NCBI RefSeq assembly: GCF_900102915.1
Contig: NZ_FNGG01000001.1
Location: forward strand, 310,001-374,000
Length of the DNA: 64,000 bases
Direction: 5' to 3'
Origin: Salinimicrobium catena
GTDB taxonomy: Bacteria; Bacteroidota; Bacteroidia; Flavobacteriales; Flavobacteriaceae
The notes below the pieces were generated by a model. That model had not been told where the DNA came from, searched no databases, and worked only from the letters and a program-made list of their open reading frames with translations. A program made the translations under genes and the position numbers. This document shows, piece by piece, positions 8,251 through 60,434 of the stretch (position 1 is its first letter; each line of letters starts with the position of its first letter).

Positions 8251-8925
8251 TTAGTTCAGGTTTAAGGTCAGTTCTGTAGTTAAAAAGAATTCATGTGCCA
8301 GTTGGCGGGTGTAATTCTCCATTCTGTATTCAAAGCCCAGCCCCAGCTCAAGATCTTTGAAGGAAGTATTTTCAATTCCTATTGAGAAACGCTGTTCTGC
8401 TTCAGGTTTAGTTTCGGCCGCAACAGCATACAGAGCTTCGGTGGCGGCCATGAAGTCAAGACTGGAACCAAGAGGTCTTGAAAAGGAAAGTTCATATCTC
8501 AATCTATGAATTATGATTTTTCTGAACCGCTGTTCCAGCCTGACCCGGTGAGAAAATACGGAAGCCTGCGGCGAGATCTCGGCCTGCTCAATGATCCTGA
8601 ACTCATCTGTACTTAAGGAATTAAACATTTCCCTGAACCTGTATCTAAGGCCAAGGCTAAGCACTAAGGATTCGTTTGTTATATAATTGGTGAAATGGTT
8701 CAATTCCAGATGGTCATGTTGATAACCGGAAATTCTCTCCCCGTTAGATCTCTCCTGAAGCATTCAGCGGTTTCCTACACCTATATCCATTGACCACTCT
8801 TTATCAAGGAACAGTGAAATGCCCAGTTCGTTTTCATAGAAATAGGAAGAGGCATTTTGAGCAAAGACGCTGCTTCCGGGAAGCACAAAGAAGATGATCA
8901 GGAAAGGGAATAATTTGCCACCCAT
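8251..8925 (-). pseudogene. DUF2490-type outer-membrane protein interrupted by one in-frame TGA
   Basis: Reading from ATG 8925 gives a signal peptide (MGGKLFPFLIIFFVLPGSSVFAQ) and then SSYFYENELGISLFLDKEWS MDIGVGNR, a TGA at 8766-8764, and in the same frame MLQERSNGERISGYQHDHLE through a beta-strand-rich region to LTTELTLNLN. Both halves read as one barrel of about 224 codons, similar to DUF2490 proteins. The stop lies where a Trp (TGG) would fit. No frameshift is needed, so this is a recent nonsense mutation, a base error, or two separately translated pieces (an ATG directly follows the TGA). Confidence 0.7.
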
Positions 8926-8973
8926 GGGTTCTTTTTCATTAGCAGCCTCTAAAATAACAGTTCTTTCGGCAAA

Positions 8974-9049
8974 CAAAAAAACCGACCCCAAAAGAAGTAC
9001 CAGTAACCCCTACACTATCTGGTCCTTCACGGAAAGTCGGTTATTTTTT
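8974..9049. other. Candidate structured RNA / attenuator-like element
   Basis: Three nested helices: AACCGAC (8980-8986) with GTCGGTT (9036-9042), extendable by A-tract and T-tract; GAAG (8994-8997) with CTTC (9025-9028); and ACCAG (8999-9003) with CTGGT (9019-9023), closing a 15-base loop. Seven-base internal loops separate the first two helices on each side. Both strands end in a T run. Read on the minus strand it would be a 5' leader ending about 50 bases before the DUF2490 start; read on the plus strand it precedes the HupE-like gene. I do not recognise a known riboswitch. Confidence 0.5.
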
Positions 9050-46923: not shown

Positions 46924-46953
46924 AAAAGAAAAACCGGGAAAAATTTCCCGGTT
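46924..46953 (-). terminator. Terminator of the five-gene exported-protein operon
   Basis: AACCGGGAAA pairs with TTTCCCGGTT, followed on the minus strand by TTCTTTTT. Confidence 0.82.
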
Positions 46954-46977
46954 CTTTAAGACTAAGTACCATTTAAA

Positions 46978-47946
46978 TTACCACCAACCCCTTAAATTAT
47001 AGGTCATTGTTTGAGGCTGATTTGAGCCATAAGCAATACCAACTGCCCTGGCCGCTTCGATCTTTTGTTCCTGAAGATCCTGAGCTTTTAATACAAAATT
47101 CCATTCCCTGTCATCTATTTGCCTTACACGCTGACCTATTTGATTTGAAAATCTCTGGGCCTCCTTAAAACAATCTGAAGACGGCTCGATGGCTGATAAG
47201 TAGTGTACAGCATTGAGAGCTCCTTCATAGTCCTGACTGGCATTCCAGATGTTTCTGGCGTTTTGCAGGTTCACCTTGCAGTCCTTATCGATCTTTTGCT
47301 GATAAACTGGGCCTATTAAAGTTGTTGCCTTTTGGTAACATTCGCTGTTTATATTAGGAATTCCACTTAAAATAAACAAAGACCTATCAAAGTCATTTTG
47401 AGCTGCAGCTACTTCAGCTTCCTTCAGTATAAAATCACATTGTGTATTATAATAATTAAGGATCTGTTGCTTTGCTGAAGAAATTAATCTTGATACCTGG
47501 GGATTTTGATTACCTATTTGTTTTAGAGCATTGATATAAGCTTTGTTCTCATTAGCTCCTACTCCTTTCACAGATATTGTTGTGCTTCCGAATTTTGTTC
47601 CTTCAAATCCGTCTCCTACAAAAAGCTGTACATCCAGGTTAACAGCTACTCGCGGCGGTGCCCCGGCTACTATAGATTTACCGGTCACCTGAATATTAGG
47701 AGTGAGAATAAATCTGGTATTATAAGATGCATTTCCAAAGCCATTCATGGAAATGATTTGCCGAAGTTTACTTTGCAAATTGCTCTTTGCTCCGGCAGGT
47801 AAATATTCCACCTGGTCTGAAATATAGGGCGCAATACCTATCCGGTCATAATCACTTAAATTTCCATTCTTTTCCTGAGCCAATACGCTAAACGTGTTGA
47901 TGAACAAGAAGGCTACTGAAATTATATGAATAATTTTTATCATCAT
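46978..47946 (-). CDS. Exported protein of unknown function (operon gene 5)
   Basis: 322 residues: signal peptide (MIKIIHIISVAFLFINTFSVLAQ), then DRIGIAPYISDQVEYLPAGA and LQSKLRQIISMNGFG, which by eye recall the alternating fold of LpoB/CsgG-like lipoproteins (weak). The C-terminal half is helical with Cys-containing TPR-like repeats (AQNDFDRSLFILSGIPNINSECY; ASQDYEGALNAVHYLSAIEPSSDCF). No family is recognised with confidence. It lies seven bases after the DUF6175 gene and is last in the operon. Confidence 0.75.
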   Translation of the reverse strand: MMIKIIHIISVAFLFINTFSVLAQEKNGNLSDYDRIGIAPYISDQVEYLPAGAKSNLQSKLRQIISMNGFGNASYNTRFILTPNIQVTGKSIVAGAPPRVAVNLDVQLFVGDGFEGTKFGSTTISVKGVGANENKAYINALKQIGNQNPQVSRLISSAKQQILNYYNTQCDFILKEAEVAAAQNDFDRSLFILSGIPNINSECYQKATTLIGPVYQQKIDKDCKVNLQNARNIWNASQDYEGALNAVHYLSAIEPSSDCFKEAQRFSNQIGQRVRQIDDREWNFVLKAQDLQEQKIEAARAVGIAYGSNQPQTMTYNLRGWW

Positions 47947-47953
47947 GATCTAA

Positions 47954-48919
47954 TTATTTACTTCCTAAAAATAAAGTGGCTTCCCCCAGTCCCCGGGTGG
48001 TAACCTTGTTCTCAATATTGAAAGGCGCATCTTCAAGATAATTGCTTAACCCTCTCATGAAACTGCGGGTATCCACAGCGCGTTGCCTTCCATTACGCTC
48101 GGTATATAAAGGAATTCTTACCTGCTCAAAGATCATCATGTTCTCTGTAGCATCTATGGTAGAAAATCTTCCCTGAACAGTATTGTCAGCTAACCAGTCT
48201 TCAATTAATAATCCCAGTTCATCTTCATTGGGTCCGTATTCCGACTCCAGATCATGCTCCCAGTCATCCCACCTCTTTATGCGGATGGTAACCTCTCTTC
48301 CATTTTCGAATAGATCATCAAAATGATCTTGCAAAGAAGAACTGAAATTATCAATGTGAGATAGAACTGCCTCTTCCAAAAGAACAGGAAGTTCAGTAGA
48401 GAACGAAGGTGCTCCCGTACCGGCAGCAGTTGCCACCTGCTTGTTAGAGTATGAGTCGAGGCCCTGCAGGTTAAACGTCACTGATTTCCTGGGACCTGTT
48501 TGATTCACGTTCCAGGTAAGCTGCATAATAATATCTGCTTTGGCAATAGATTTTAACTGGTCTACCGGACTCTCAGCCACTTCAGCCCCCGAAGATTTGG
48601 AACTTCGCATAGCGTCTTCCGCTGCATATGAGGAAAGTGATCTTACTACGGACTCCATATTTTTAAGGGGAAAATCCCGTTCGGCCATTAAACCGTTGAT
48701 CTTACTTATAACCAAAAGCAACTCGGTATTTTCTTGGAAGGCCCTTTTATAATCGGGAATGCGGGTAGGAATTCCCTGATCATCGAACTCCAGCACATAA
48801 CCGTTCTGGATACACCAGGCATCACTTGGTACCACCATTAAAGTAGGCTTTTTTGCCTGCGCAATAGCAGCATTGGTTATGAGGGTCAAAAATGTAATTA
48901 AAAGTAATTGTTTCTTCAT
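47954..48919 (-). CDS. DUF6175-like exported protein (operon gene 4)
   Basis: 321 residues with a signal peptide (MKKQLLLITFLTLITNAAIAQ). The mature start KKPTLMVVPSDAWCIQNGYV is characteristic of DUF6175 in Bacteroidota. Further motifs are KSIAKADIIMQLTWNVN and FNLQGLDSYSNKQVATAAGTG, reminiscent of the CsgG/LpoB-like proteins that form envelope assemblies. Function is not established. Four bases separate it from the 155-residue lipoprotein gene. Confidence 0.75.
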   Translation of the reverse strand: MKKQLLLITFLTLITNAAIAQAKKPTLMVVPSDAWCIQNGYVLEFDDQGIPTRIPDYKRAFQENTELLLVISKINGLMAERDFPLKNMESVVRSLSSYAAEDAMRSSKSSGAEVAESPVDQLKSIAKADIIMQLTWNVNQTGPRKSVTFNLQGLDSYSNKQVATAAGTGAPSFSTELPVLLEEAVLSHIDNFSSSLQDHFDDLFENGREVTIRIKRWDDWEHDLESEYGPNEDELGLLIEDWLADNTVQGRFSTIDATENMMIFEQVRIPLYTERNGRQRAVDTRSFMRGLSNYLEDAPFNIENKVTTRGLGEATLFLGSK

Positions 48920-48923
48920 CTTT

Positions 48924-49391
48924 TTAGGGGATTATATCGTCTGTTCTCAATTGTTGTTTCAAAGCAGGTATGTCGATCTCAACTATATAGCCATAAGCCT
49001 CCTTCATATTACTTCGGTTATTCCTAACCAGCTTTTTGTTGTTCCGGGTCTGTTTGATGAAATCTCTGTAATTTCCTTTTTCCGAAAAGAAATGATTAAA
49101 GTAGGCATCATACTTTTCGAGGGCATTGACTTCAGTGACCAAGGGTCTCATATTACAATCTGAATTTCCGTTGCGAATACCTTCAAACAGGACATCATGA
49201 AGAGCTTCCTGATAAGCTCTTATCTTGGCACTCTTGACATCCTCTCCCGTTCCCCAGGTTTTAACTATTTGCGATCCGTCGTAGTTTTTGCCCATACATT
49301 CGGTATCGTAGGAGTAGTATCCCGAAATTGGAGTTTTACAGCCGGTAAAAAACAGGCTTACAACTAGAATAGTAAAGAATAATTTTCTCAT
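48924..49391 (-). CDS. Small lipoprotein, paralogue of its upstream neighbour (operon gene 3)
   Basis: 155 residues with lipobox FFTGC. It shares with the 176-residue protein the pattern Y(E/D)xEC.G, an alanine-rich helix (AKIRAYQEALHDVLFEGI versus AKKNAVHGVIFKGV), a Cys-Pro segment and FF..GG/GN.Y..F, so the two are ancient duplicates. The charged tail (NNKKLVRNNRSNMKEAYGYIVEIDI) resembles a beta-strand-rich end. No named family is recognised. Confidence 0.75.
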   Translation of the reverse strand: MRKLFFTILVVSLFFTGCKTPISGYYSYDTECMGKNYDGSQIVKTWGTGEDVKSAKIRAYQEALHDVLFEGIRNGNSDCNMRPLVTEVNALEKYDAYFNHFFSEKGNYRDFIKQTRNNKKLVRNNRSNMKEAYGYIVEIDIPALKQQLRTDDIIP

Positions 49392-49393
49392 AA

Positions 49394-49924
49394 TTAAAAT
49401 CCTGATGACAGCCCTCTTACGATCCCGGCATCCTCAAGATCCCTCCGCAGTAAAGCTTTATTAACTGATACGATGACTCCTATTTTATATTCGCGTCTTC
49501 CAATCTTCATCCGGTCTCCCTGGGCTATTGCACCATTGGTGGTCAAATTCACGAACTTCTGATACTTCCCGCCTTCCATAAAGAAATTTTCAAAAAATGC
49601 TGCTTTTTCCTCCTCCAGGTTAGCATTCCTGGCAAGGGCAGGTTGAGAGACACATCCTCTGTCTCCCGCTGGCACTCCTTTAAAGATCACCCCGTGAACC
49701 GCGTTCTTTTTGGCTTGTTCGGCCGCCACATGTGGCCTTTTAGAGAAAGACCACACTTTAAGAAGGTAATTCCCTTCAGTTCCTGTTCCCACGCATTCTA
49801 TTTCATATCTCCATTCATGAGTATCCTCATCTGCCTTTTTCTTAGCACGTCTTTGTGCAGTTGCAGTAGTACACACGAAACTGAAAAGCACAACTGTAAA
49901 TAAGATCCTGATATTATTTTTCAT
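49394..49924 (-). CDS. Exported protein, paralogue of the next gene (operon gene 2)
   Basis: 176 residues. Signal peptide (MKNNIRILFTVVLFSFVCTTATAQ) followed by a Lys/Arg-rich stretch (RRAKKKADEDTHEW) and the same core as the 155-residue lipoprotein (YEIECVGTG, LLKVWSFSK, AKKNAVHGVIFKGV, FFENFFMEGGKYQKF). It ends in a basic segment (IGRREYKIGVIVSVNKALLRR). It lacks the lipobox Cys, so the pair is split between a lipidated and a free form. Confidence 0.75.
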   Translation of the reverse strand: MKNNIRILFTVVLFSFVCTTATAQRRAKKKADEDTHEWRYEIECVGTGTEGNYLLKVWSFSKRPHVAAEQAKKNAVHGVIFKGVPAGDRGCVSQPALARNANLEEEKAAFFENFFMEGGKYQKFVNLTTNGAIAQGDRMKIGRREYKIGVIVSVNKALLRRDLEDAGIVRGLSSGF

Positions 49925-49931
49925 AGGGTAA

Positions 49932-52310
49932 TTAATTGATTTGTCGTATTAGCATTCCGGAATAGTATTTTCCTCGTTTTCCTTTAAAAACGGTATATTC
50001 CTCTTCTGAAGTAGAAGATTCTTCAGATTCCTCATCATAAAGAGTATTGTCCCAAATATGATTAGGGTCTACTTTAATTTTACCAACCCTTTTATAGTGA
50101 GTTCGGCCATTCTCATCTATCACCTGCTCAAGAACCTCGAATTTATCTCCCTTTTCCAGACCCTCTTTCAGCCCGATCTTGGCAGAAATTGGATCTCCGC
50201 TCAACAAAGGAGACTTGGTTCGGAATTCTTCAAATTTTCTCTGCAATTTTGATATTCCCTTGTTTGTAGCTCTTACAGTAGCTTTTTTGATCAAATCCTG
50301 ATCTGACTTTTTGGTGAAAGCAGTAGATTGTAGATCGGCCCATGCTGATTGTGATCCTACCAGCCTTAATTTGAACAGGTCTGAAGTTTCAAAGGCTTCT
50401 TTTTTTGCCGGATCGTAATTCCTGTTATCCATCCAGAGATTGGAGTAAAATTCGTTGGCAATCTGATCATTCCAAACCAGGCGGTAGAGGTAAGAAGTAG
50501 TTTTGACCACATAACCTTTACCCATCACTGTAGCACCTACATTTGCCGCATCGGCAGCTAAAGCCACTCCATCATAACCGGCAATAGAAGCAACATCACT
50601 AACAAAGCTCAATACTCCTGAAGCTTTCTGTGCTACCTCCTCCTTATTCACATATTTATAGTCGTTCACAATGAGAAAAGTGTTTCCTATCAGCTCCTCA
50701 CCTGCATCAGCTAAAAGGGCCTCTCCCCGCTTGCTGTCTTTGGCAATCAATACGTCAAGGTCTGAAGCATTATAGGAGCCCCGGCTTGCCACCAGGTCCA
50801 TGGTAAATTCCCCTTTGTCGTTTCTACCAAACCATTTAGCTACCAGATCGCGGGCCACTCCGTTCTCATTTAGATATGCCGTGATAACATCAGACTGATC
50901 CTTCTCCCCGCCTTCTGCATCGATTAGGTATGGTCCAATATTATGATCATTGAACTTTTCTGATAGTTCAAAGTTTCCAAAGGCATCTCGTATAGCATCA
51001 AAATGCAATCTCTCTGTATCATTGATCATCATGGTATAAAGAGAACTACGGCGATACTTTAATCCAGCCTCGGTATTGTCTTCGGAATGTTTTACCTTTT
51101 CAATATCTCCTTCTTCCTCTATGACACTGCTACCGGGTACGGTGGTCGATGTAGTATAAGAGCTGCCTGTTTCATTGGATTTCAGGATCTGTTGGTAAGC
51201 AATTTCACGTTTGTTTGCGCCATATTCTACCGGAGCGTCAGATGTTGCAGTTGTAGAACTGGTAAAATCACCTGTTGAAGGTCCCGCAGTGGCATCTGCC
51301 AGATATTCTGAAGCTCCGGCACTAATATTTGTTGTACTTTGAACCAATTTTCCATAGGTCTGCTCTAGTTCGGCTTTTTTCGCTTCAGAAAATGCTAAGG
51401 AACTTTTCTTACTCACCAGCTTCTTAACTGCCATTTGCTTTTCCTGCTCCCCGGTCACGTCAGTAAGGAAGAAATGCGTTAGCTTCCCATCAGGTGATGC
51501 TTCCATTTTATATGCTCCTCCATTAAGATCAGCATGAAGGTAATGGGTTGATCCGGGTAAGGCTGCGATATTGACAGTAGAAGCAAAATTCACTTCTGAA
51601 TATACGCCGGTAAAGGATAGGTCACCCGGAGGAGCTTTATAGGTAATGGTATTTTTACCTTTTATGCTCCCAATATATTGGTTGCCGTGAAAAATGGGAA
51701 GTTCAATATGTTCCGCTACTATGCCCACATGAGCAAAGTGAATGGTCACCATATCTTCGGGCGCAGTTATTGTTGCCGCCTTTTTAGCAGCTTTCTGAGC
51801 ATTGGCAAGCTGAACCGTATGGTCTACCTCTTCCTGTTCCCTGGTTAAAATATGAGCCCAGCGATCTTCATACTTTTCCTCATACTCTCTTTTTTCGGTG
51901 GAGGAAACTACTTGAAAATCTCCTTTTTCCACTTTCTTTTTTGCTTTTTTCAGTAATTTTTGGTCGTTACTGGCATCAAAAAGAAAATCTGTGGGATCGA
52001 ACATGTTTAGCTTTCCAACTACATAATAGGTTTTCCCCGGCTCCAGATCCATCGAAAAAGTTGTGGTCATGTGACCTGCGGGAAAAGCACCCACGATCTG
52101 TTGTTCCCCGGGATCCATTTCAGCCTTTATCGTATTATTTCCACGGATGGCACCCTGATAACCCGACTCAGTAAAAATGTGCAGGTTTATTGCCGACCCC
52201 TGAAAACCGGCTCTGGCGAAATAAACTATTGCTTTTTCCTCATTAGCCTGAGCAAAACCATACTGAAAGGGTACTAATAAAAGAAGTAAAAAAAGGTAGA
52301 ATTGTTTCAT
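49932..52310 (-). CDS. Large exported protein with tandem DUF2846-like repeats (operon gene 1)
   Basis: 792 residues with signal peptide (MKQFYLFLLLLLVPFQYGFAQ). Two copies of a DUF2846-like unit lie at about 27-115 and 185-285, sharing (F/Y)(A/F)...G..G..I...IF....Y.G.I.G.NTI, PPG/DPGE and an L.PG.TYY/HYL end. A Ser/Thr-rich linker follows (about 330-400), then a region of about 350 residues with TMMINDTERLHFDAIRDAF, a small-residue stretch (SVASIAGYDGVALAADAANVG) and a C-terminal KVDPNHIWDNTLYDEESE. First gene of a five-gene operon; no function assigned. Confidence 0.75.
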   Translation of the reverse strand: MKQFYLFLLLLLVPFQYGFAQANEEKAIVYFARAGFQGSAINLHIFTESGYQGAIRGNNTIKAEMDPGEQQIVGAFPAGHMTTTFSMDLEPGKTYYVVGKLNMFDPTDFLFDASNDQKLLKKAKKKVEKGDFQVVSSTEKREYEEKYEDRWAHILTREQEEVDHTVQLANAQKAAKKAATITAPEDMVTIHFAHVGIVAEHIELPIFHGNQYIGSIKGKNTITYKAPPGDLSFTGVYSEVNFASTVNIAALPGSTHYLHADLNGGAYKMEASPDGKLTHFFLTDVTGEQEKQMAVKKLVSKKSSLAFSEAKKAELEQTYGKLVQSTTNISAGASEYLADATAGPSTGDFTSSTTATSDAPVEYGANKREIAYQQILKSNETGSSYTTSTTVPGSSVIEEEGDIEKVKHSEDNTEAGLKYRRSSLYTMMINDTERLHFDAIRDAFGNFELSEKFNDHNIGPYLIDAEGGEKDQSDVITAYLNENGVARDLVAKWFGRNDKGEFTMDLVASRGSYNASDLDVLIAKDSKRGEALLADAGEELIGNTFLIVNDYKYVNKEEVAQKASGVLSFVSDVASIAGYDGVALAADAANVGATVMGKGYVVKTTSYLYRLVWNDQIANEFYSNLWMDNRNYDPAKKEAFETSDLFKLRLVGSQSAWADLQSTAFTKKSDQDLIKKATVRATNKGISKLQRKFEEFRTKSPLLSGDPISAKIGLKEGLEKGDKFEVLEQVIDENGRTHYKRVGKIKVDPNHIWDNTLYDEESEESSTSEEEYTVFKGKRGKYYSGMLIRQIN

Positions 52311-52606: not shown

Positions 52607-52643
52607 AAAAGCTCTGATAATCATCATGATCACCAGAGCTTTT
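52607..52643 (-). terminator. Terminator beside the leftmost tRNA-Arg 3' end copy
   Basis: AAAAGCTCTG pairs with CAGAGCTTTT. It lies four bases left of the copy, in the same relation as the terminator at 54947 to its copy and the terminator beyond the intact tRNA-Arg. It is likely the original terminator of the tRNA before islands inserted. Confidence 0.7.
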
Positions 52644-52989: not shown

Positions 52990-54480
52990 CTATCCAATAA
53001 GGTTTCCATTCGAATCGTAAAATTCGGTTTTAGTAATAGTGGAATTCTGATCCTTATATTCCATTTTATAGGAACCGTCACTATTTATGGTTTTCCAAAT
53101 CGAGGTACCGTCGGCGAATGCTGTAATAACTTCAATTAAAGTTCCCTTATAATAAGTTTCGATCACATCTGTTCCTTCACCATCAACATCATATAAGAAG
53201 TTGGTGATATAATCACCTGCAGTCACTTTCCACCTAGTTCTTTTTTCTTCCTCATCAAAGAACATTTCTTCGGTACGTCCCGTTGATAAAGCACCGGGAT
53301 CATGTTTAATCCAGCTCTCCAGGGTATGATCATTTCGATATTTAAAAGATTCGGTTGCAGTAGAGTTTGGGGAATTTATTTCAATTTCCAGATAATCTCC
53401 AGCTGAATTGTAAGTATAAATTTTGACGCTAGTGACTTCCGATCCGTTGTTAGAATATAGGCTATTAGTTTTTCGATTTCCATCAGGAAGATGGGTATAA
53501 ACTTCCCTATAGATGGTATTGAAATTTTCATTCTGTATTTGAACCACAGCTGCCTTAATTTTTAAATCTGAGCCCAATTCAAGAAACTGAACAGCTTCAA
53601 ATCTGGAGTTATCCATATTCACCTTTTCTATTTTAGAAATCAGATTTGATTCGCTATAGAAAATCTCCACAATCTCATTGAAATTAAGCTCCCCATTTTC
53701 AAAAATATCCAGCTCATATGAAGTTGGCAATCCTTCAGAATTATATTCCTTATACCTCAGTTCATAAACTACACGGTTTGGATATTTTTCATATAAAGTT
53801 GATGTTGCTAACAATCCTTCTTCCTTTGTTTCGTGAACCCAGTAAATACTGGAAGGAGGTTTAGGAATCCAATCCTCGATGGTAGGGGTGAAATTCATGA
53901 ATATTCTATTCTGCACATCATAGTTAAGATTAAGATTTTCAGCGAGATGGAGAGCCGCTTCTTCAGGATACACAACAGACAAATTGGATCCAGTAGACAT
54001 ATTGACCTCCGCAATAATTTGACCTAGTACCTTTTCGATAGGTTGCATAAAATCAATACTGGAAACCGTTATAGCATTAACTGTAGAGGCAGTTATTTCA
54101 ATTCCATTTGATGGATCCTCGTCGTTATCCAAAGACTGGAGGAATGCTGCAATATTTTTAACTTCAATAGAGTTTATGTCTGGATTATTTGATGACGCAA
54201 TGTCAATGGGATTCATATTTTCTTTAGCAATTCCACTTCCTATAAGAATATCCCCCACATAAAAGGTTACGGTCTCTCCTTCTAGATATTCAAACTCTCC
54301 GTTTTCGTCTGTTACACCACTTTTAGTCTCAGTGGTATACTTCAGGCCACTTACTTGAGAATCTATAAAAATTCCTGTTTCAGTTCTGGCTCCCGTTTCT
54401 CCTTTGCCTGTATCATCTGTAGAACACCCACAAATTACCGTCAAGCTGACAATAGTAATAATTCTATAGAATTCCCTCAT
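52990..54480 (-). CDS. Island lipoprotein A (496 residues, tandem duplicate)
   Basis: Lipobox VICGC, then GIFIDSQVSGLKYTTETKSG and VTDENGEFEYLEGETVTFYV, a beta-domain seen in secreted proteins as SP.V.G..Y.T.T.SG.T...G.F.Y..GE.V.F. The C-terminal 60 percent has repeating YD-like patterns (YNSEGLPTSYEL, YNSAGDYLEIEI, FYDSNGNLIG). It has no catalytic motif. It is almost identical to lipoprotein B at 55430, with the same length and no gaps, despite flanks that have diverged. Function unknown; a cargo role such as surface exclusion is only a guess. Confidence 0.75.
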   Translation of the reverse strand: MREFYRIITIVSLTVICGCSTDDTGKGETGARTETGIFIDSQVSGLKYTTETKSGVTDENGEFEYLEGETVTFYVGDILIGSGIAKENMNPIDIASSNNPDINSIEVKNIAAFLQSLDNDEDPSNGIEITASTVNAITVSSIDFMQPIEKVLGQIIAEVNMSTGSNLSVVYPEEAALHLAENLNLNYDVQNRIFMNFTPTIEDWIPKPPSSIYWVHETKEEGLLATSTLYEKYPNRVVYELRYKEYNSEGLPTSYELDIFENGELNFNEIVEIFYSESNLISKIEKVNMDNSRFEAVQFLELGSDLKIKAAVVQIQNENFNTIYREVYTHLPDGNRKTNSLYSNNGSEVTSVKIYTYNSAGDYLEIEINSPNSTATESFKYRNDHTLESWIKHDPGALSTGRTEEMFFDEEEKRTRWKVTAGDYITNFLYDVDGEGTDVIETYYKGTLIEVITAFADGTSIWKTINSDGSYKMEYKDQNSTITKTEFYDSNGNLIG

Positions 54481-54689
54481 AATTGGTTAGATTTTATGCC
54501 GTCGTTCAATGACAACCCATTGTTTTACAGCAATTTAACTGATTTTATTAACTGCATAAATTAATATTAAGTTAATTTTAACTTGAAATGTTTTTAGACA
54601 TTCTATTAATTCGAATTACCCGAAAAACATTAAAAATTCCTGTTTGAATCTTCTGAATACTGAATGTTAATCCTATACACCTCCCGTAG
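54481..54689 (-). promoter_or_regulatory. Conserved upstream region of lipoprotein A
   Basis: About 210 AT-rich bases, matching the corresponding stretch upstream of lipoprotein B over most of its length (for example ATTGTTTTACAGCAATTTAA and TTAATATTAAGTTAATTTTAA-like stretches). It should hold the promoter. Confidence 0.5.
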
Positions 54690-54844
54690 AGCCTTCGCGC
54701 AGCCATTTTTCTGTCATTTTTTCGTAAATCGGAAATAGGATAGGCCGTATTATTAATTGGACAGTGTGGACAACAGTTAATGCTCGCCGGCTAATTTCCT
54801 AATTCCATTATTTTGCATTTAAAAAAAGGGTTGCCTGAAGGGCT
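54690..54844. repeat. Long conserved dyad A upstream of lipoprotein A
   Basis: An outer arm at 54690-54710 (GCCTTCGCGCAGCC) pairs imperfectly with 54821-54844 (GGGTTGCCTGAAGGGC), and an inner arm at 54723-54745 pairs partly with 54784-54806. The same arrangement is better preserved at 57165-57322. The span is about 155 bases. Possible roles: replication or transfer origin, or a structured RNA. Confidence 0.6.
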
Positions 54845-54946
54845 AAGGAAGCGATTATAGGTAAAGGAGGATTTTATAATTTATTTCAATTTAGCCGACG
54901 GTAGGGAATGTATACTAGTAGCGGCAAGTGATTGTGTCAAATAAAT

Positions 54947-54979
54947 AAAACCCTGTAAATCAATAGATAAACAGGGTTT
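54947..54979 (-). terminator. Terminator beside the middle tRNA-Arg copy
   Basis: AAAACCCTGT pairs with ACAGGGTTT, 21 bases left of the tRNA 3' end copy at 55001. Very similar in sequence to the terminator at 60304. Confidence 0.75.
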
Positions 54980-55000
54980 CTAATTAATTAAATAATGTGA

Positions 55001-55025
55001 AGTAGCCTCGCCAAGAATCGAACTT
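55001..55025 (-). repeat. tRNA-Arg 3' end fragment (middle attachment site copy)
   Basis: 25 bases identical to 60361-60385, covering the T-arm and acceptor 3' side of tRNA-Arg(CCU) plus two flanking bases. After this point the sequence departs from the tRNA, as expected for an att site left by integration. Confidence 0.85.
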
Positions 55026-55072
55026 TTCTCTTGGACCCTGTATTCCTGCTGGGTTTGATAAAATAGTTTCTG

Positions 55073-55094
55073 AAATGTTGACGATTTGTGAACT
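55073..55094 (+). repeat. 22-bp direct repeat near the island left end (copy 1)
   Basis: ATGTTGACGATTTGTGAACT with two further A at its 5' side. The identical 22 bases occur at 60238. Both copies lie close to a tRNA 3' end copy, so they may be arm-type binding sites for the integrase. Module A lacks this copy. Confidence 0.65.
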
Positions 55095-55298
55095 CGCATA
55101 AGTTGATTTTTCCTCTTGATAATAAAGATAATTATTTGATGTGAAACCATTGAATTAAATATGTCGTGAAGAAAATTTGAGTAAAAAAAGTACCGGTTTT
55201 AGAAGGGTTACACCCTTTTTACTAAAAAATTTAAATAGGTTCGGATAATCCTTTTTGTCGAAATCCGTAAAAGCCTCTAGCCATAGGGGTTGCCAAAT

Positions 55299-55347
55299 GG
55301 GAAACCAACTCAACATCGCTTCGGCGTGTTGCCCTCTTGCTTTTCCC
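55299..55347 (+). other. Conserved stem-loop with TTCG tetraloop downstream of lipoprotein B
   Basis: GGGAAA/TTTCCC outer arms enclose CAACA-T-CGC-TTCG-GCG-TGTTG (55311-55331). C(TTCG)G is the stable tetraloop form on the plus strand. It is the counterpart of the weaker stem-loop at 52861 in module A. A structured RNA or a terminator is possible. Confidence 0.5.
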
Positions 55348-55429
55348 TACAGACGTAAAATACATAGTTTGGGAACGATTTATCAGTTATTTCTAGACAA
55401 AGGCGGCGAGCGAGGGTTCTCAAATTTTC

Positions 55430-56920
55430 CTAAGCAATTAGATTTCCGTTTGAATCGTAAAATTCGGTTTTAGTAATAGTTGAATTCTGATCCTTATATT
55501 CCAATTTATAGGAACCGTCACTATTTATGGTTTTCCAAATCGAGGTCCCGTCGGCGAATGCTGTAATAACTTCGATCAAAGTTCCATGGTAATAAGTTTC
55601 GATCACATCTGTTCCTTCGCCGTCCACATCATATAAGAAGTCAGTTATATAATCACCTGCAGTCACTTTCCACCTAGTTCTTTTTTCTTCCTCATCAAAG
55701 AACATTTCTTCGGTACGTCCCGTTGATAAAGCTCCGGGATCTTGTTTAATCCAGCTCTCCAAGGTATTATCATCTCGATAATAAAACGTTTCGGTTACAG
55801 TAGAGTTTTGGGAATTAATTTCAATTTCTGAATAATCCCCGGCCGAATTGTAAGTATAAATTTTTACGTTAGTTAGTTCCGATCCATTATTGGAATACAA
55901 GCTATTCGTTTTTCGATTTCCATCAGGAAGATGGGTATAAACTTCCCTATAGACGGTACTGAAATTGTCATGTTGTATTTGAACCACCGCTGACTTTATT
56001 TTTAACTCCGAGTCCAATTCAAGAAACTGAACAGCTTCAAATCTAGAGTTATCCAAATTCACCTTTTCTATTTTAGAAACTAGATTTGATTCATTGTAGA
56101 AAATCTCCACGAGCTCATTTGATATAAGTTCCCCATTTTCATAAATGTCCAACTCATATGAAGTTGGCAATCCCTCAGAATTATATTCCTTATACCTCAG
56201 GTCATAAATGATACGGTTGGGATATTTTTCATACAAGGTTGATGTTGCTAACACTCCTTCTTCCTTTGTTTCGTGAACCCAGTAAATACTGGAAGGAGGT
56301 TTGGGAATCCAGTCCTCGATGGTAGGAGTAAAATTCAAAAATGTTTTATTCTGTACAACATAATTGAGGTCAAGACTTTCAGCGAGATGTAGAGCTGCTT
56401 CTTCAGGGTATACAGCAGACAACCAGGAACCAGTCGACATGTTGACCTCTCCAATAATTTGTCCTAATAGCTTTTCAATAGGTTGCGTGAAATCAATGTT
56501 GGAAACAGTTATAGCATTAACTGTCGAGGCGATTATATCAATTCCATTTGAAGGATCATTGTCGTTGTCCAGAGACTGCAAGAATGCAGAAATATTCTTA
56601 ACTTCAATAGAATTTATGTCTGGGTTAGTAGATAACGCGATGTCAATGGGACTCATGTTTTCTTTGGCAATTCCACTTCCTATAACGATATCACCCACAT
56701 AAAAAGTTACGGTCTCCCCTTCTATATATTCAAACTTTCCATTTTCATCCGTAACACCGCTCTTAGTCTCAGTGGTATACTTCAACCCACTTACTTGAGA
56801 ATCTATGAATATGCCTGTTTCGGTTATGGTTTCCGTTTCTTCATTACCTGGATCATCTTTAGAACACCCAGATATTAGAGTCAAGCTGACAAGAGTAATA
56901 ATCCAGTATAGTTTCCTCAT
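55430..56920 (-). CDS. Island lipoprotein B (496 residues, tandem duplicate)
   Basis: Lipobox LISGC followed by the same domains as lipoprotein A (GIFIDSQVSGLKYTTETKSG, then WIPKPPSSIYWVHETKEEG and the YD-like C-terminal part). Substitutions are scattered and there are no insertions, deletions or stops, whereas surrounding non-coding DNA of the two modules differs by indels. That contrast suggests both proteins are kept by selection. It is separated from the primase by about 630 bases. No function can be assigned. Confidence 0.75.
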   Translation of the reverse strand: MRKLYWIITLVSLTLISGCSKDDPGNEETETITETGIFIDSQVSGLKYTTETKSGVTDENGKFEYIEGETVTFYVGDIVIGSGIAKENMSPIDIALSTNPDINSIEVKNISAFLQSLDNDNDPSNGIDIIASTVNAITVSNIDFTQPIEKLLGQIIGEVNMSTGSWLSAVYPEEAALHLAESLDLNYVVQNKTFLNFTPTIEDWIPKPPSSIYWVHETKEEGVLATSTLYEKYPNRIIYDLRYKEYNSEGLPTSYELDIYENGELISNELVEIFYNESNLVSKIEKVNLDNSRFEAVQFLELDSELKIKSAVVQIQHDNFSTVYREVYTHLPDGNRKTNSLYSNNGSELTNVKIYTYNSAGDYSEIEINSQNSTVTETFYYRDDNTLESWIKQDPGALSTGRTEEMFFDEEEKRTRWKVTAGDYITDFLYDVDGEGTDVIETYYHGTLIEVITAFADGTSIWKTINSDGSYKLEYKDQNSTITKTEFYDSNGNLIA

Positions 56921-57164
56921 AATCGATTGAATTTTATGCCGCCGACAACTAACAACACATTGTTTTACAGCAATTTAACTTATTTTATTAACTGTATAAA
57001 CTAATATTAAGTTAATTTTAACCTTGATGTTTTGGCCTTCTAGTAATTCTAATTTCTCGACAACATAGAATATTTACTTTTTGTATCCTGAAGCGCCTTC
57101 CATTTTTCTCTGGATCTGTCCTTCTGAACATCAGACCCTGTCTAATTTCATTTACTTCCCGTAG
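56921..57164 (-). promoter_or_regulatory. Upstream region of lipoprotein B
   Basis: About 244 AT-rich bases matching the region upstream of lipoprotein A, with ATTGTTTTACAGCAATTTAA in common. No ORF of note. Confidence 0.5.
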
Positions 57165-57322
57165 AGCCTTCGCGCAACCATTTTCTGTTGCTTTTTTTTC
57201 GTAATTCGGAATTAGGATAGGCCGTAATTTAAAATATAAAGTTTAGGTTATTCAGTTAGTGCAGGCCGGCTAATTTCCGAATTACGTTGCTTTGCATTTT
57301 GGAAAATGGTTGCCTGAAGGCT
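57165..57322. repeat. Long conserved dyad B upstream of lipoprotein B
   Basis: The outer arms 57165-57185 and 57302-57322 pair at 19 of 21 positions (CAACCATTTTC with GAAAATGGTTG, flanked by AGCCTTC/GAAGGCT). The inner arms CGTAATTCGGAA (57200-57211) and TTCCGAATTACG (57275-57286) pair perfectly, followed by GGCC/GGCC. Together they form a hairpin of about 158 bases. Dyad A is the weaker counterpart. Outer arms lie well upstream of the lipoprotein gene. Confidence 0.7.
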
Positions 57323-57547
57323 AAGGAAGATTATAGGGAAAGGAGGACTCTATTTTGTACTTAATTCGAGTTGGATTTCTATTTAGCGAACTCGTGGTAG
57401 CAGCGGCGACCGGAATGGTGCGACTGGATTTTCCCAGGAGCGAAATACAGGGAGTCCTGCTGCCATGGGTTCAAGATCATTTCCGAAGCTCTTTTCCCGC
57501 AGCATAGTGAAGGGGAATGTGCTGAGGAAAATTTTATTTTAAAGCGT
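57323..57547. other. Non-coding stretch between dyad B and primase
   Basis: 225 bases. A 67-codon frame overlaps the primase 3' end here but has no family look and is not accepted. Some words (TAGCAGCGGC) match the module A end near 54920. Confidence 0.35.
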
Positions 57548-58402
57548 TTAAAATCGCTGCATATGCAGCATAAGTTTTTCATTTAAGTCTTTAAAGCCTT
57601 TATAGACCGATGAACAATCCTTGATTGAATATTTCTTAAGTTCATGGACAGCTTTCCTTCCTGCAGGATCATTGTCCAGATATAAATTGATCTCCTCATA
57701 GTTGCCCAGTAATTGAAAGCTATTTTTCAAAAAGCCAAGGGAGTTCAGTACAATACTATCTGAGGAACACACCAGGTCCAAATCCAGTGTAGCGAGGGAT
57801 AAAAAATCAAACATTCCTTCGAAGAGTAAGAGTTTTTCATTTCCTTTTCTAATGGAACTGTACGATTTAGGAGCTGTCGAATTTTTAAAGAATTTATTCC
57901 TAAGCTCCCATCCTCCTAAAGAATTTGGGAGCCCAATTGAGAAATGGGTCTTTCCATTATGGGTGTACCACACCTCCTTACAAAACAATTTGGCAGTAGA
58001 TTCTGATATCCCTCTTGACTTGAGATAATGAATAAGTGCCGGGTGTTGTAATTCTTTAACCTTAATGACTTCAATGGAACTATTTCTTCTGGTTTGCTTG
58101 ATTACCGGCGGGTTAAAGAAAAATGAAGTTTGGCTGCTTAGGTAGCGCAGAGCATCTACCGCTGTGCAGGATTTCAACTCCATAACCAGATCTATAACAT
58201 TCCCTCCTTTTGCAATTCCGAAATCGTACCAAAGGTTTTTGTACAGAGTTACACAGAAAGATGCTTCTTTTTCTGTCCGTAGCGGACTCAGATACCAGGC
58301 AGCTTTGCTGGTTTGTTTTTTAGGGACAACACCAAAATCTCCAAGAACTTTTACGATGCTCTTTTGTCTGGCCTCCTTCCAATCCAATAAATTATTTTCC
58401 AT
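57548..58402 (-). CDS. Toprim/primase-like protein (island replication)
   Basis: 284 residues. The N-terminal part resembles a CHC2-type primase zinc domain but lacks the Cys/His ligands (YLSPLRTEKEASFCVTLYKN then LWYDFGIAKGGNVIDLVMEL). The Toprim domain runs from about residue 190 with LLLFEGMFDFLSL (metal Glu) and INLYLDNDPAGRKAV (DxD). Such short primases occur in Bacteroidota mobile elements with VapE helicases. It would make primers for element replication. Downstream of the iteron-like cluster. Confidence 0.82.
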   Translation of the reverse strand: MENNLLDWKEARQKSIVKVLGDFGVVPKKQTSKAAWYLSPLRTEKEASFCVTLYKNLWYDFGIAKGGNVIDLVMELKSCTAVDALRYLSSQTSFFFNPPVIKQTRRNSSIEVIKVKELQHPALIHYLKSRGISESTAKLFCKEVWYTHNGKTHFSIGLPNSLGGWELRNKFFKNSTAPKSYSSIRKGNEKLLLFEGMFDFLSLATLDLDLVCSSDSIVLNSLGFLKNSFQLLGNYEEINLYLDNDPAGRKAVHELKKYSIKDCSSVYKGFKDLNEKLMLHMQRF

Positions 58403-58417
58403 ATGTCATTTTTTCAC

Positions 58418-58614
58418 TTACCTATCTTACCTTATGCATTATTACTGGGCTAAAACTTACCTGAGCTATCTTTCTTGATCTTACCCATCTTACCCTTGGG
58501 TAAGATTAGGTAACATTAATTTTTTTTCTTTTACCCGCTTAGAACTCTTTATTGAACCGGCTTTTCCTTTATTAGGTAACTAGGTAACTTTTTTTTACTG
58601 TTTTTTATATTACC
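58418..58614. repeat. Iteron-like cluster of TTACC/GGTAA motifs
   Basis: TTACC occurs at 58418, 58427, 58457, 58481, 58490, 58531 and 58610, and GGTAA at 58499, 58509, 58575 and 58583: 11 copies in about 197 bases, several with 8-10-base spacing (CTTACCTATCTTACC, TTAGGTAACTAGGTAAC). Located between the VapE-type helicase and primase genes, it is a candidate replication origin or repressor site. Confidence 0.6.
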
Positions 58615-58618
58615 TAAT

Positions 58619-59635
58619 TCACAATAGCTCCAGAGGAGAATTTTTAAAAAGAGGGCGGACCAGGTATCCATAAACCTGTCGCTTTGGTTCTTTGATCCTT
58701 TCGAATCCACGGCTTTTTAATGCCTTTCCCATGCTGATCACATTCAACCGTGAATTAATGCAATTAAGACTGGCAATAATATCCGAGGCAGTCATAAATT
58801 CATTTGGATCACTGCTAATTTCAAAGTACTTCGATAGAAATTCTTCCTCCATGGAAGGTTCTTTGTATGGTTTGTTGCGTTCTTCATTTTGCAGAATATC
58901 CTGTAATGATAGTTCCGGATCAAAACTTTCTTCACTATAGGCTAAATGATATGCCTGTGCCCATACATCATTAATATCTATTTCCTTGAAGTAGTCAAAG
59001 TTGATCTTTCCCAGAAGGTCAAAACACAACCATCGCACAGATCCTGTTTCATCATTAAGAAAAGTGGTCCTATTAGTTGAGCCTACAAAACTGCATATTC
59101 TTTGGAGGGAAGTATTTTTCCGGTCATACGGCAATCTTTCATTGATCATAGTTTTAGAAAAATAGGCTTTCAGAGCATTGATTTCCTTTTTTGCCAGGAC
59201 AGACAATTCGTCAAGGTTGATCAGGAAATTCCTTGCCAGCTGAATCCTGGCATCTTTATCCGTACTCATGTCCTCAGCAAAATAGGTCCGCAATTCAGGA
59301 GGACACAGGAAACGGCACCAGGTTGACTTTCCTGAATTTTGTTGTGCCTGCACCAGGACAAGACACTGCTTATTAAAATACTGTTCCTCCAAGGCACATT
59401 TCACACATCGAACCAACCACTTCTTGAAATGATACTCGAATAAAGCTTGTTCTTTCAATGGCAAATAACGGGCGAGCTTCACTATATGATCCTTTCCATC
59501 CCAGTCAGGTAAAGATTCAAAATATTCTCCAAGCGGATTAAACTTTGGAATCAGATGAGAGTTAAGGAAGATTTCCAGTTTTGATAAGGAGATTTCTATG
59601 TTAGCCTGGGCTAGCTCAATGAGAAATGAATTCAC
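58619..59635 (-). CDS. VapE/VirE-type helicase, N-terminally truncated
   Basis: 338 residues. P-loop QAQQNSGKSTW at about 95-105, LARNFLINLDELSVL (Walker B-like), YDRKNTSLQRICSFVGSTN and GSVRWLCFDLLG are the virulence-associated E pattern. The open frame starts with GTG 59635, inside the integrase remnant, and the same frame runs upstream only to a TAA near 59660. Full-length relatives have an extra N-terminal part, so the protein appears to have lost it. It is a superfamily 3-like ATPase expected to unwind the element origin. Confidence 0.78.
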   Translation of the reverse strand: MNSFLIELAQANIEISLSKLEIFLNSHLIPKFNPLGEYFESLPDWDGKDHIVKLARYLPLKEQALFEYHFKKWLVRCVKCALEEQYFNKQCLVLVQAQQNSGKSTWCRFLCPPELRTYFAEDMSTDKDARIQLARNFLINLDELSVLAKKEINALKAYFSKTMINERLPYDRKNTSLQRICSFVGSTNRTTFLNDETGSVRWLCFDLLGKINFDYFKEIDINDVWAQAYHLAYSEESFDPELSLQDILQNEERNKPYKEPSMEEEFLSKYFEISSDPNEFMTASDIIASLNCINSRLNVISMGKALKSRGFERIKEPKRQVYGYLVRPLFKNSPLELL

Positions 59636-60146
59636 TTCTAATTTCTCCCAATTGTATTATGAAACTGTAGTCAAGATCTCCCAAATAATAATTTTTCCTA
59701 TTGTATTCCTTTTTTAAAAAAAGTCGGATATAGTTTTGGCTTGTAAGATAGAGACGTGAAGTATTGTTCTTCAACTTGGAAAACATATTCTCATTATGAT
59801 AAAGAAATAGATCCTCGAAAGTAAATAGGTTCTGATCTTCTTTAAAATATCTTGCCTTGATGTTTTCCGGAGAAATTACTTTTCCTTGATACCGAATTTC
59901 CTGATAAATTTGAACAAGACGAGCATGTTCCTGATCCAGAAACAAATTTAGATCCCTAGCTTTAGTTCCTGTTCCTCTTACTCGCTGTTTTACGGAATCC
60001 CAGCGATTTACTTCCACTTTTCTCTTGAGGCTAATATTTAGCTTCTTTCTGTTTACGCTTATTCTGACATAAAGAGGCGCCTCATTATTTTTTGTACGCT
60101 GGGAATAGACCCAGAATAGGACTGAAAAAGTTGCATTTGTTCGCAT
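59616..60146 (-). pseudogene. Tyrosine recombinase (integrase) lacking its catalytic domain
   Basis: 176 codons starting MRTNATFSVLFWVYSQRTKN. An arm-binding domain (APLYVRISVNRKKLNISLKRKVEVNRWD) and a SAM-like core-binding domain (LFTFEDLFLYHNENMFSKL to YYLGDLDYSFIIQ) are recognisable. After YSFIIQ the frame reads through unrelated text (LGEIRSEFISH) and stops; the expected R-H-R-Y catalytic domain is absent. The new text is VapE coding sequence read out of frame, so an internal deletion near 59650 joined the two genes. The element should be unable to excise with this protein. Confidence 0.75.
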
Positions 60147-60237
60147 AACTGATGTTTTTACTTAGACATTTTACGAGAATCCAATCACCAGTTTTGAGTA
60201 AACAAAAGACCTTTTAAGATAGAAACAAAAGCTGGAA

Positions 60238-60259
60238 AAATGTTGACGATTTGTGAACT
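60238..60259 (+). repeat. 22-bp direct repeat near the island right end (copy 2)
   Basis: Identical to 55073-55094, in the same orientation, about 90 bases left of the integrase-side of tRNA-Arg and just upstream of the integrase start. A candidate arm-type integrase site. Confidence 0.65.
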
Positions 60260-60303
60260 TTTTTCTTCAATTTCATCTTATTTCAAATAACATCAAAAAA
60301 AAT

Positions 60304-60339
60304 GAAAACCCTGACAACTCATTGATTATCAGGGTTTTT
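60304..60339 (-). terminator. Terminator of tRNA-Arg
   Basis: AAAACCCTGA pairs with TCAGGGTTTT, downstream of tRNA-Arg on the minus strand. Nearly the same stem as at 54947. Confidence 0.78.
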
Positions 60340-60362
60340 AATATGTTAAAGAAATGTTAAAG

Positions 60363-60434
60363 TAGCCTCGCCAAGAATCGAACTTGGATCTAAAGTTTAG
60401 GAAACTTCTATTCTATCCATTGAACTACGAGGCC
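60363..60434 (-). tRNA. tRNA-Arg (anticodon CCU)
   Basis: Acceptor GGCCTCG pairs with CGAGGCT, D-arm TAGTTCAATGGATAGAATA, anticodon stem GAAGT/ACTTT with loop TTCCTAA (CCU at 60401-60399), and T-arm CCAAG-TTCGATT-CTTGG. Discriminator is A; CCA is not encoded. Only this copy is complete. The 3' end is repeated at 55001 and 52647, so the gene was the integration target. Confidence 0.93.

Follow-up and report, generated by a model that had tools for sequence, protein, structure and literature searches.

A five-gene operon of exported proteins in Salinimicrobium catena with predicted FlgT-type modules: a possible outer-membrane collar in a genome without tested flagellar families

The H-ring of the Vibrio polar flagellum consists of the lipoproteins FlgO and FlgP, plus FlgT, parts that have been described as add-ons of polar flagella, and it is thought to help the flagellum to cross the outer membrane and to anchor it (PMC7990780). 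It is among the closest described systems to an operon of five genes, here called A to E, on the minus strand of a 64,000-nucleotide stretch of Salinimicrobium catena (the window: positions 310,001 to 374,000 of contig NZ_FNGG01000001.1), from a genome rated 100% complete. The domains of FlgT are named N, M and C, of which Pfam holds FlgT_M and FlgT_C. Proteins of the CsgG, PelC and H-ring types form oligomers at the outer membrane, as the titles of Protein Data Bank (PDB) entries also state (for example, the PelC dodecamer). One of the five proteins belongs to DUF6175 (PF19672), which was named in no paper of the literature searched and is here placed in a gene cassette with a predicted fold. 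Our reading, to which we give a probability of about one half, is that the operon encodes an H-ring-like outer-membrane collar that does without a flagellum and the function of which would be the passage or the anchoring of a partner.

The original prediction had described five tightly spaced genes, all with signal peptides, and both descriptions stand: the five open reading frames (ORFs) follow one another in the order of transcription A-B-C-D-E, from window position 52310 to 46978, with gaps of 7 (A/B), 2 (B/C), 4 (C/D) and 7 (D/E) bases, and each of the proteins begins with a stretch that, by eye, resembles a signal peptide. The two paralogues, one of them lipidated, that had been announced are B and C, which share 24% identity in the B/C alignment (A3) and each of which retrieves the homologues of the other by blastp; only C among the five has a lipobox by a simple pattern (FTG-C). 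Across the alignments 10 of the 11 C-type rows and 6 of the 23 B-type rows carry this pattern, counts that are to be taken only as a hint, because it also matches a few rows of A, D and E. After the lipobox of C comes KTPISG, which has neither of the lipoprotein surface signals K-(D/E)2 and Q-A-(D/E)2 (PMC5080379), and C is therefore expected to face the periplasm. D was likewise correctly recognised as DUF6175-like, being a full-length member of the family (415.8 bits against a cut-off of 23, E-value 1e-124; hmmscan, Pfam-A).

A first line of evidence for a collar comes from predicted folds. B and D were modelled through a natural fusion of the two in a Bacteroidales metagenome-assembled genome (MAG; locus L031), with an alignment (A7) composed of the fusion and a selection of further rows, 4 from D and 10 from B, and this model reached a predicted local distance difference test score (pLDDT) of 82.3 and a predicted template modelling score (pTM) of 0.60; the conserved core of A, modelled from 19 alignment rows, reached 80.1 and 0.81, respectively. 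In Foldseek searches of the PDB, the B-D model retrieves FlgT (3w1e, E-value 2.2e-5), the LPHT-ring chain 8z5n_0 (1.5e-4) and GNA1162 (8.8e-4), then CsgG and PelC; for the A core two chains only are significant, both of them FlgT (8z5n_0, 1.3e-6; 3w1e, 2.8e-6), the next standing at 0.059. In the VIA comparisons, 212 residues of B-D align with 3w1e (Z 9.4; model 49-352 on 3w1e 1-267; root-mean-square deviation, rmsd, 13.2), and the alignment with 8z5n_0 (Z 9.1) covers the M part only; 210 residues of the A core fall on 3w1e 94-354 (Z 8.2) and on 8z5n 119-377 (Z 8.3), with an rmsd of 11.5-12.3, and the other 48 rows shown for this core, all but 6uxc, concern nothing other than its small C-terminal barrel. 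By these models the parts of FlgT that B-D resembles are N and M, and those that the A core resembles are M and C; the order N-M-C would be distributed over two chains, as N-M in B-D (3w1e; in 8z5n only M) and as M-C in the A core (in both), with low whole-chain template modelling scores (TM-scores) and, for B-D, with higher Z values to CsgG and PelC than to FlgT. The first domain of D is predicted to have a CsgG-type fold, in common with CsgG, PelC and GNA1162.

The cassette would resemble FlgT in the predicted fold and order of its modules, and probably also in a periplasmic location on the outer-membrane side, whereas it differs in that the modules lie on separate genes (of the 28 loci, L031 and L046-L049 alone have B and D in fused form), in the addition of E and of the DUF2846-like parts, in the lack of any Pfam match to FlgT, and in belonging to a genome without the flagellar families tested. 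It recalls FlgP, FlgO and the LPP20 family in having a small lipoprotein beside FlgT-like parts, and in that distant relatives of E are fused to LPP20, although no LPP20 match is listed at E<=1 for the rows of B and C. It resembles CsgG, furthermore, in that a CsgG-family gene adjoins B in some relatives; unlike CsgG, PelC and GNA1162, which are outer-membrane lipoproteins, the D of the window has neither a lipobox nor a match to the CsgG family, and pore-forming segments were not seen by eye.

The second line of evidence is the conservation of the cassette. A scan for D in contigs of named genomes gave 17 loci, and longer stretches were obtained for 12 from a sample of 395 genomes of the phylum; these 29 become 28 distinct loci when L039, which repeats L025, is left out, with the near-copies L034-L036 all counted. 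The loci were retrieved with D, which is hence present in 28 of 28 by construction. According to the profiles, a B/C-type domain adjoins D or is fused to it in 26 of the 28, the exceptions being L041, where the B-type domain lies ~4 kb downstream of D, and L047, where the profile misses a B that the alignment shows; E follows D likewise in 26 of the 28, L037 retaining only the end of E and L047 again being missed by the profile, with E visible in the alignment (the match of L048, counted as present, is weak, at 0.0012). A second B/C gene occurs in 9 of 28 loci. The A core is found in 19 of them: it precedes B in 14, comes after E in 4 (those of the Bacteroidales, L033-L036) and is rearranged in L041; in this last locus, an 85-residue ORF (8721-8978) corresponds to the C-terminal domain of A alone, directly upstream of D, and a full A lies further on.

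Among the 395 sampled genomes, 19 have D, 5 of which give no profile match to E; conversely, E is found in 15, 14 of them also with D on the same contig and within ~2 kb, and the A core is complete in 5, with partial matches in 4 more. The order B-(C)-D-E holds across Flavobacteriia and Bacteroidales, which answers in the affirmative the earlier call to check gene order in relatives, and the fused form appears in distant families of the phylum; the D proteins nearest to that of the window are from Leeuwenhoekiella and Sinomicrobium (Flavobacteriaceae), and D has no match in 72,556 plasmid records. The cassette is self-contained, conserved and patchy in its distribution.

Gene fusions in the relatives point in the same direction. 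B and D form a single ORF in L031, as they do in L046-L049, from distant families of the phylum, in which a second protein follows where an LPP20-type lipoprotein domain is fused to the domain of E. The profile of B matches the distant fusions at 97.5% and that of the E domain matches the LPP20-E proteins at 94.9%; the LPP20 domain itself scores 26.9 bits against a cut-off of 25.9 (in the one protein scanned, from L046), and no significant match emerges when the profile of B/C is set against the LPP20-E proteins. On the tree of D the fusion requires two changes, well-supported branches forcing both, and these could also be one gain and one loss. The C-terminal part of A (about core residues 260-374) recurs in proteins of 555-597 residues (profile match 94.9%), the second half of which looks like an outer-membrane barrel, with no Pfam match in the three scanned; in L045 and L047 such a barrel-like relative takes the place of A, immediately preceding B and B-D, respectively, in L048 one lies at a distance of ~4.7 kb, and the A of L031 has a barrel-like tail. 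Since B-D fusions appear in two places on the tree, together with the LPP20-E fusion and the long-range synteny, a joint function of the cassette is argued for.

As regards flagella, FlgI, FlgH, FHIPEP (FlhA) and Flagellin_N have no match in the genome, with controls matched in 3, 3, 4 and 4 of 14, respectively, and since these four families are unmatched in a genome rated 100% complete while the controls respond, a flagellum is very unlikely. The search for FlgT_C also gave no match, its control being matched in only 1 of 14 and under the cut-off, and for FlgT_M and LPP20 the controls themselves gave no match.

One cassette thus brings together predicted modules of FlgT type and a paralogue with a lipobox, joined in relatives by an LPP20 domain and by a part that resembles a barrel, and this is the basis for proposing a collar independent of the flagellum, that is, an outer-membrane-attached periplasmic ring made from modules of the Vibrio FlgT/H-ring kind, split over several chains. 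Within it, B and its lipidated paralogue C would provide the N-type module of FlgT and would tie the ring by lipid to the outer membrane, on its inner face; D would contribute the domain of CsgG/FlgT-M type and act as a unit with B; A would supply the modules of M and C type, to which the barrel-like part would be added in relatives; and E could provide a further periplasmic domain with an arm resembling tetratricopeptide repeats (TPR), able to hold a partner or to extend in the direction of the cell wall. If the H-ring is a guide, such a collar would stabilise or open a route across the outer membrane, to be used by some other structure or by a cargo. The ring at the outer membrane, the single complex and its partner or cargo are what we infer from the above, as are export and lipidation, the role of E, and passage or anchoring as the function. 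The envelope complex without a known name that had been foreseen is sustained in one respect, the set being conserved, of the envelope and without a name of its own, and modified in others, in that its modules are recognisable as FlgT-type and the single complex follows only by inference from synteny and fusions. Correspondence with a characterised complex in structure searches had been named as something that would refute the idea of an undescribed complex, and what was found goes halfway, the matches pointing to FlgT of the Vibrio H-ring.

Several results weigh against this proposal. No FlgT, LPP20 or other flagellar-ring family of Pfam is matched by the five proteins of the window (hmmscan, E<=1), and neither FlgT nor LPP20 nor flagellar-ring families are listed for the members of the alignments A3 (27), A1 (22; 25 of 26 families) and A4 (19). 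The Z values of 8.2-9.4 to FlgT are only slightly above the level of unrelated models, HpaA (9.4), LptE (up to 9.0) and TolB (up to 8.0) come near to FlgT in the comparisons of B-D, and the whole-chain TM-scores are low (0.18-0.29), these and the rmsd of 11.5-13.2 arising because the domains match but their orientation differs. CsgG (10.9) and PelC (10.3) outscore FlgT (9.4), with 143 residues aligned to CsgG 6lqh (rmsd 7.5) and 125 to CsgG 4q79 (Z 10.5, rmsd 3.7), both alignments being of the D part, so that a CsgG/PelC-type reading of D is equally good. Moreover, neither an A-type gene nor a barrel-like relative of A was found in the stretches fetched for L046 and L049, the neighbouring genes of the loci include no conserved partner, and L037 keeps only remnants of it, without the A core. 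In this Psychroflexus MAG (L037, 9792-10630) what remains is a 62-residue piece of B and ~206 residues of D that merge into the final 32 of E, either through decay or through an assembly fault, and the locus was scored as present for B and absent for E and the A core.

The chief rival to the collar, possible though clearly less probable, is an export apparatus like those of CsgG and PelC, in which D, with A, would form an oligomeric outer-membrane channel or a collar surrounding a barrel and the set would secrete a polymer or protein. It finds its strength in the VIA scores of D just given, in the presence of GNA1162, CsgG and PelC after FlgT in Foldseek, in the barrel-like tail of the A relatives, and in the CsgG/LpoB-family proteins encoded, in the position of A, directly upstream of B in L044 (LpoB 37.4 bits, cut-off 22.3; CsgG 34.3) and L042 (CsgG 21.0, just above its cut-off of 20.8; LpoB 21.8, under its cut-off of 22.3), to which L043 adds a weaker relative one gene further upstream. 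However, the CsgG family has no match in the genome (control 4 of 14), no gene for cargo or synthesis turned out to be conserved next to the cassette, D shows no recognisable long amphipathic hairpin when its alignment is read by eye, and the A core is significant to FlgT only, with CsgG at 0.46; its profile comparison with the CsgG-like neighbours of the relatives is also weak (22.5%). The two readings overlap in part, because proteins of the CsgG, PelC and H-ring types all form oligomers at the outer membrane. The same LpoB-family relative of L044, with the helical-repeat-like tail of E, could instead suggest a regulator of peptidoglycan synthesis, lipoprotein C and its partners crossing the cell wall to activate a synthase, as LpoB does; we hold this to be improbable, given that the five proteins of the window have no LpoB match, that a presence of D in 19 of 395 genomes is patchy and fits a core cell-wall function poorly, and that no cell-wall gene was recognised among the shared neighbours (first 60 residues, one example per cluster).

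That patchiness bears also on another possibility, namely a collar belonging to the type IX secretion and gliding machinery of Bacteroidota and not constituting an independent device, since this machinery is generally held to be far commoner than D. The coincidence of compartment (the envelope) and of phylum speaks for it, as does the fact that H-ring-type parts serve a motor elsewhere (PMC7990780), and yet we regard it as very unlikely. Finally, the five could be exported proteins that are co-transcribed without forming a common complex, the fold matches reflecting only a common periplasmic alpha/beta domain, a domain type that is indeed widespread, LptE, TolB and HpaA also matching the B-D model; against this stand the B-D fusions in two places, the LPP20-E fusion and the long-range synteny, which argue for a joint function, and the match of the A core to FlgT over two domains and significantly to nothing else, so that we consider it unlikely.

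The sequences themselves have few relatives of known structure or function. B and C have no Pfam match (hmmscan, Pfam-A, E<=1), and LPP20 is not among the 16 families listed at that threshold for the 27 B/C members of A3. The suggestion that E was LpoB- or CsgG-like could not be upheld: E has no such Pfam match in the same search, LpoB is not among 25 of the 26 families listed for the 22 members of the E alignment (A1), and no PDB sequence match is significant, the predicted fold of CsgG type being in D instead. The tail of E gives helical-repeat Pfam matches, all below the cut-off. Tandem DUF2846-like repeats are present in A as had been proposed, in the sense that there are two related repeats, with the first below the cut-off of the family; DUF2846 is matched by 2 of the 19 members of the A-core alignment (A4), with a best E-value of 9.2e-7, and the repeats are not general, A measuring only 403-454 residues in 12 of the 19 other loci having the core. 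For DUF2846 lipoproteins the literature searched gave one paper, on Bd1399, the structure of which its authors assign to another family (PMC10792529). NCBIfam gave a single match, far under its cut-off, and nothing convincing came from searching the PDB sequences with D and E or with profiles built for E, D and B/C, the lowest E-values being those of designed proteins (0.01 for D, 0.034 for B/C). A PDB sequence match of E to LptE, at 0.37, was not used. The four profile comparisons made among the cassette's families, E-D, B/C-D, A core-B/C and A core-D, are all non-significant, for which reason we do not propose that the modules share an ancestor.

Table 1. Position in the window of the genes, domains and terminator-like sites of the operon.
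Feature	Position	Strand	Remarks
Gene A	49932..52310	-	792 aa, exported; two DUF2846-like repeats, linker and conserved 374-aa core
A residues 24-160, DUF2846-like repeat 1	51831..52241	-	22.1 bits against DUF2846 (PF11008), below the curated Pfam cut-off of 34.3
A residues 180-330, repeat 2	51321..51773	-	30% identity to repeat 1, E 1e-15 (single comparison)
A core, 374 aa	49935..51056	-	model resembling the M and C domains of FlgT
A core residues 279-374, small beta-barrel-like C-terminal domain	49935..50222	-	predicted model
Gene B	49394..49924	-	176 aa, exported, without a lipobox; homologous to the opening part of the modelled B-D fusion (FlgT-N position)
Gene C	48924..49391	-	155 aa, B paralogue, lipobox FTG-C then KTPISG
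Gene D	47954..48919	-	321 aa, DUF6175
D residues ~22-207, predicted CsgG/PelC/FlgT-M/TolB-N type fold	48299..48856	-	by correspondence with L031 fusion model residues ~172-357
D residues ~208-321, second alpha/beta domain	47957..48298	-	predicted model
Gene E	46978..47946	-	322 aa, exported; conserved N-terminal domain and helical-repeat-like tail
Terminator-like stem-loop, directly downstream of E	46929..46956	-	sequence scan
Terminator-like stem-loop, upstream of A	52607..52643	-	sequence scan

The terminator-like sites that frame the operon (Table 1) are at the level of chance, with 5 in the scanned region and a mean of 5.2 in shuffles, and the promoter pattern of Bacteroidota has one match in the window, the number expected by chance, and none at the operon; the arrangement is more than chance because the gene order is conserved across loci. 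Directly downstream, on the same strand and beyond the terminator-like stem, lies an exported Ysc84-like protein (PF04366; 46207-46806). On the other side, a stretch of low G+C content (52990-60434; about 0.35-0.39, against 0.39-0.43 in the operon) ends near a tRNA-Arg (60362-60434) and contains part of an Arm/SAM-like integrase (only 176 residues), one protein like VapE and another like a Toprim/zinc-finger primase, so that it looks like a decayed integrated element beside the operon, with the operon itself outside. It also carries two very similar putative lipoproteins of 496 residues each (52990-54480 and 55430-56920), which have no Pfam match at E<=0.01.

In the relatives, the neighbour families found in at least three loci come mostly from close relatives, apart from one ABC-transporter-like cluster that spans six loci. 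In L043 (4731-8837), two exported-looking proteins of 548 and 520 residues, without a convincing Pfam match, stand on either side of the LpoB-like gene (a match below the cut-off), a short way upstream of B-D-E.

With respect to the literature, the search on FlgT in Bacteroidetes found only a mention of FlgT in a reference list, which is no proof that the cassette is undescribed; the broader one, on FlgT, FlgP and the H-ring with Bacteroidota, Flavobacteri and Cytophaga, gave nothing on it in the part screened by title and beginning of abstract. "LPHT ring" and LPP20 with CsgG gave nothing in the literature searched, and GNA1162 with CsgG led to an unrelated subject only.

If we go further back, it could be conjectured, though we hold this to be doubtful, that the ring kit was non-flagellar in origin, and that the flagellum-free branch of Bacteroidota represents a stand-alone conduit across the outer membrane for a structure or cargo, with a barrel or ancestral A, a lipid-anchored N-M ring of B/C and D, and the TPR-like arm of E, the Vibrio H-ring having arisen from it or beside it. 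As regards the collar itself, if the reading is true, outer-membrane collars of the H-ring type would exist independently of flagella, DUF6175 and its neighbours would acquire a class of function, and the operon would offer a small system in which to consider how large structures cross the outer membrane, as well as the origin of the H-ring.

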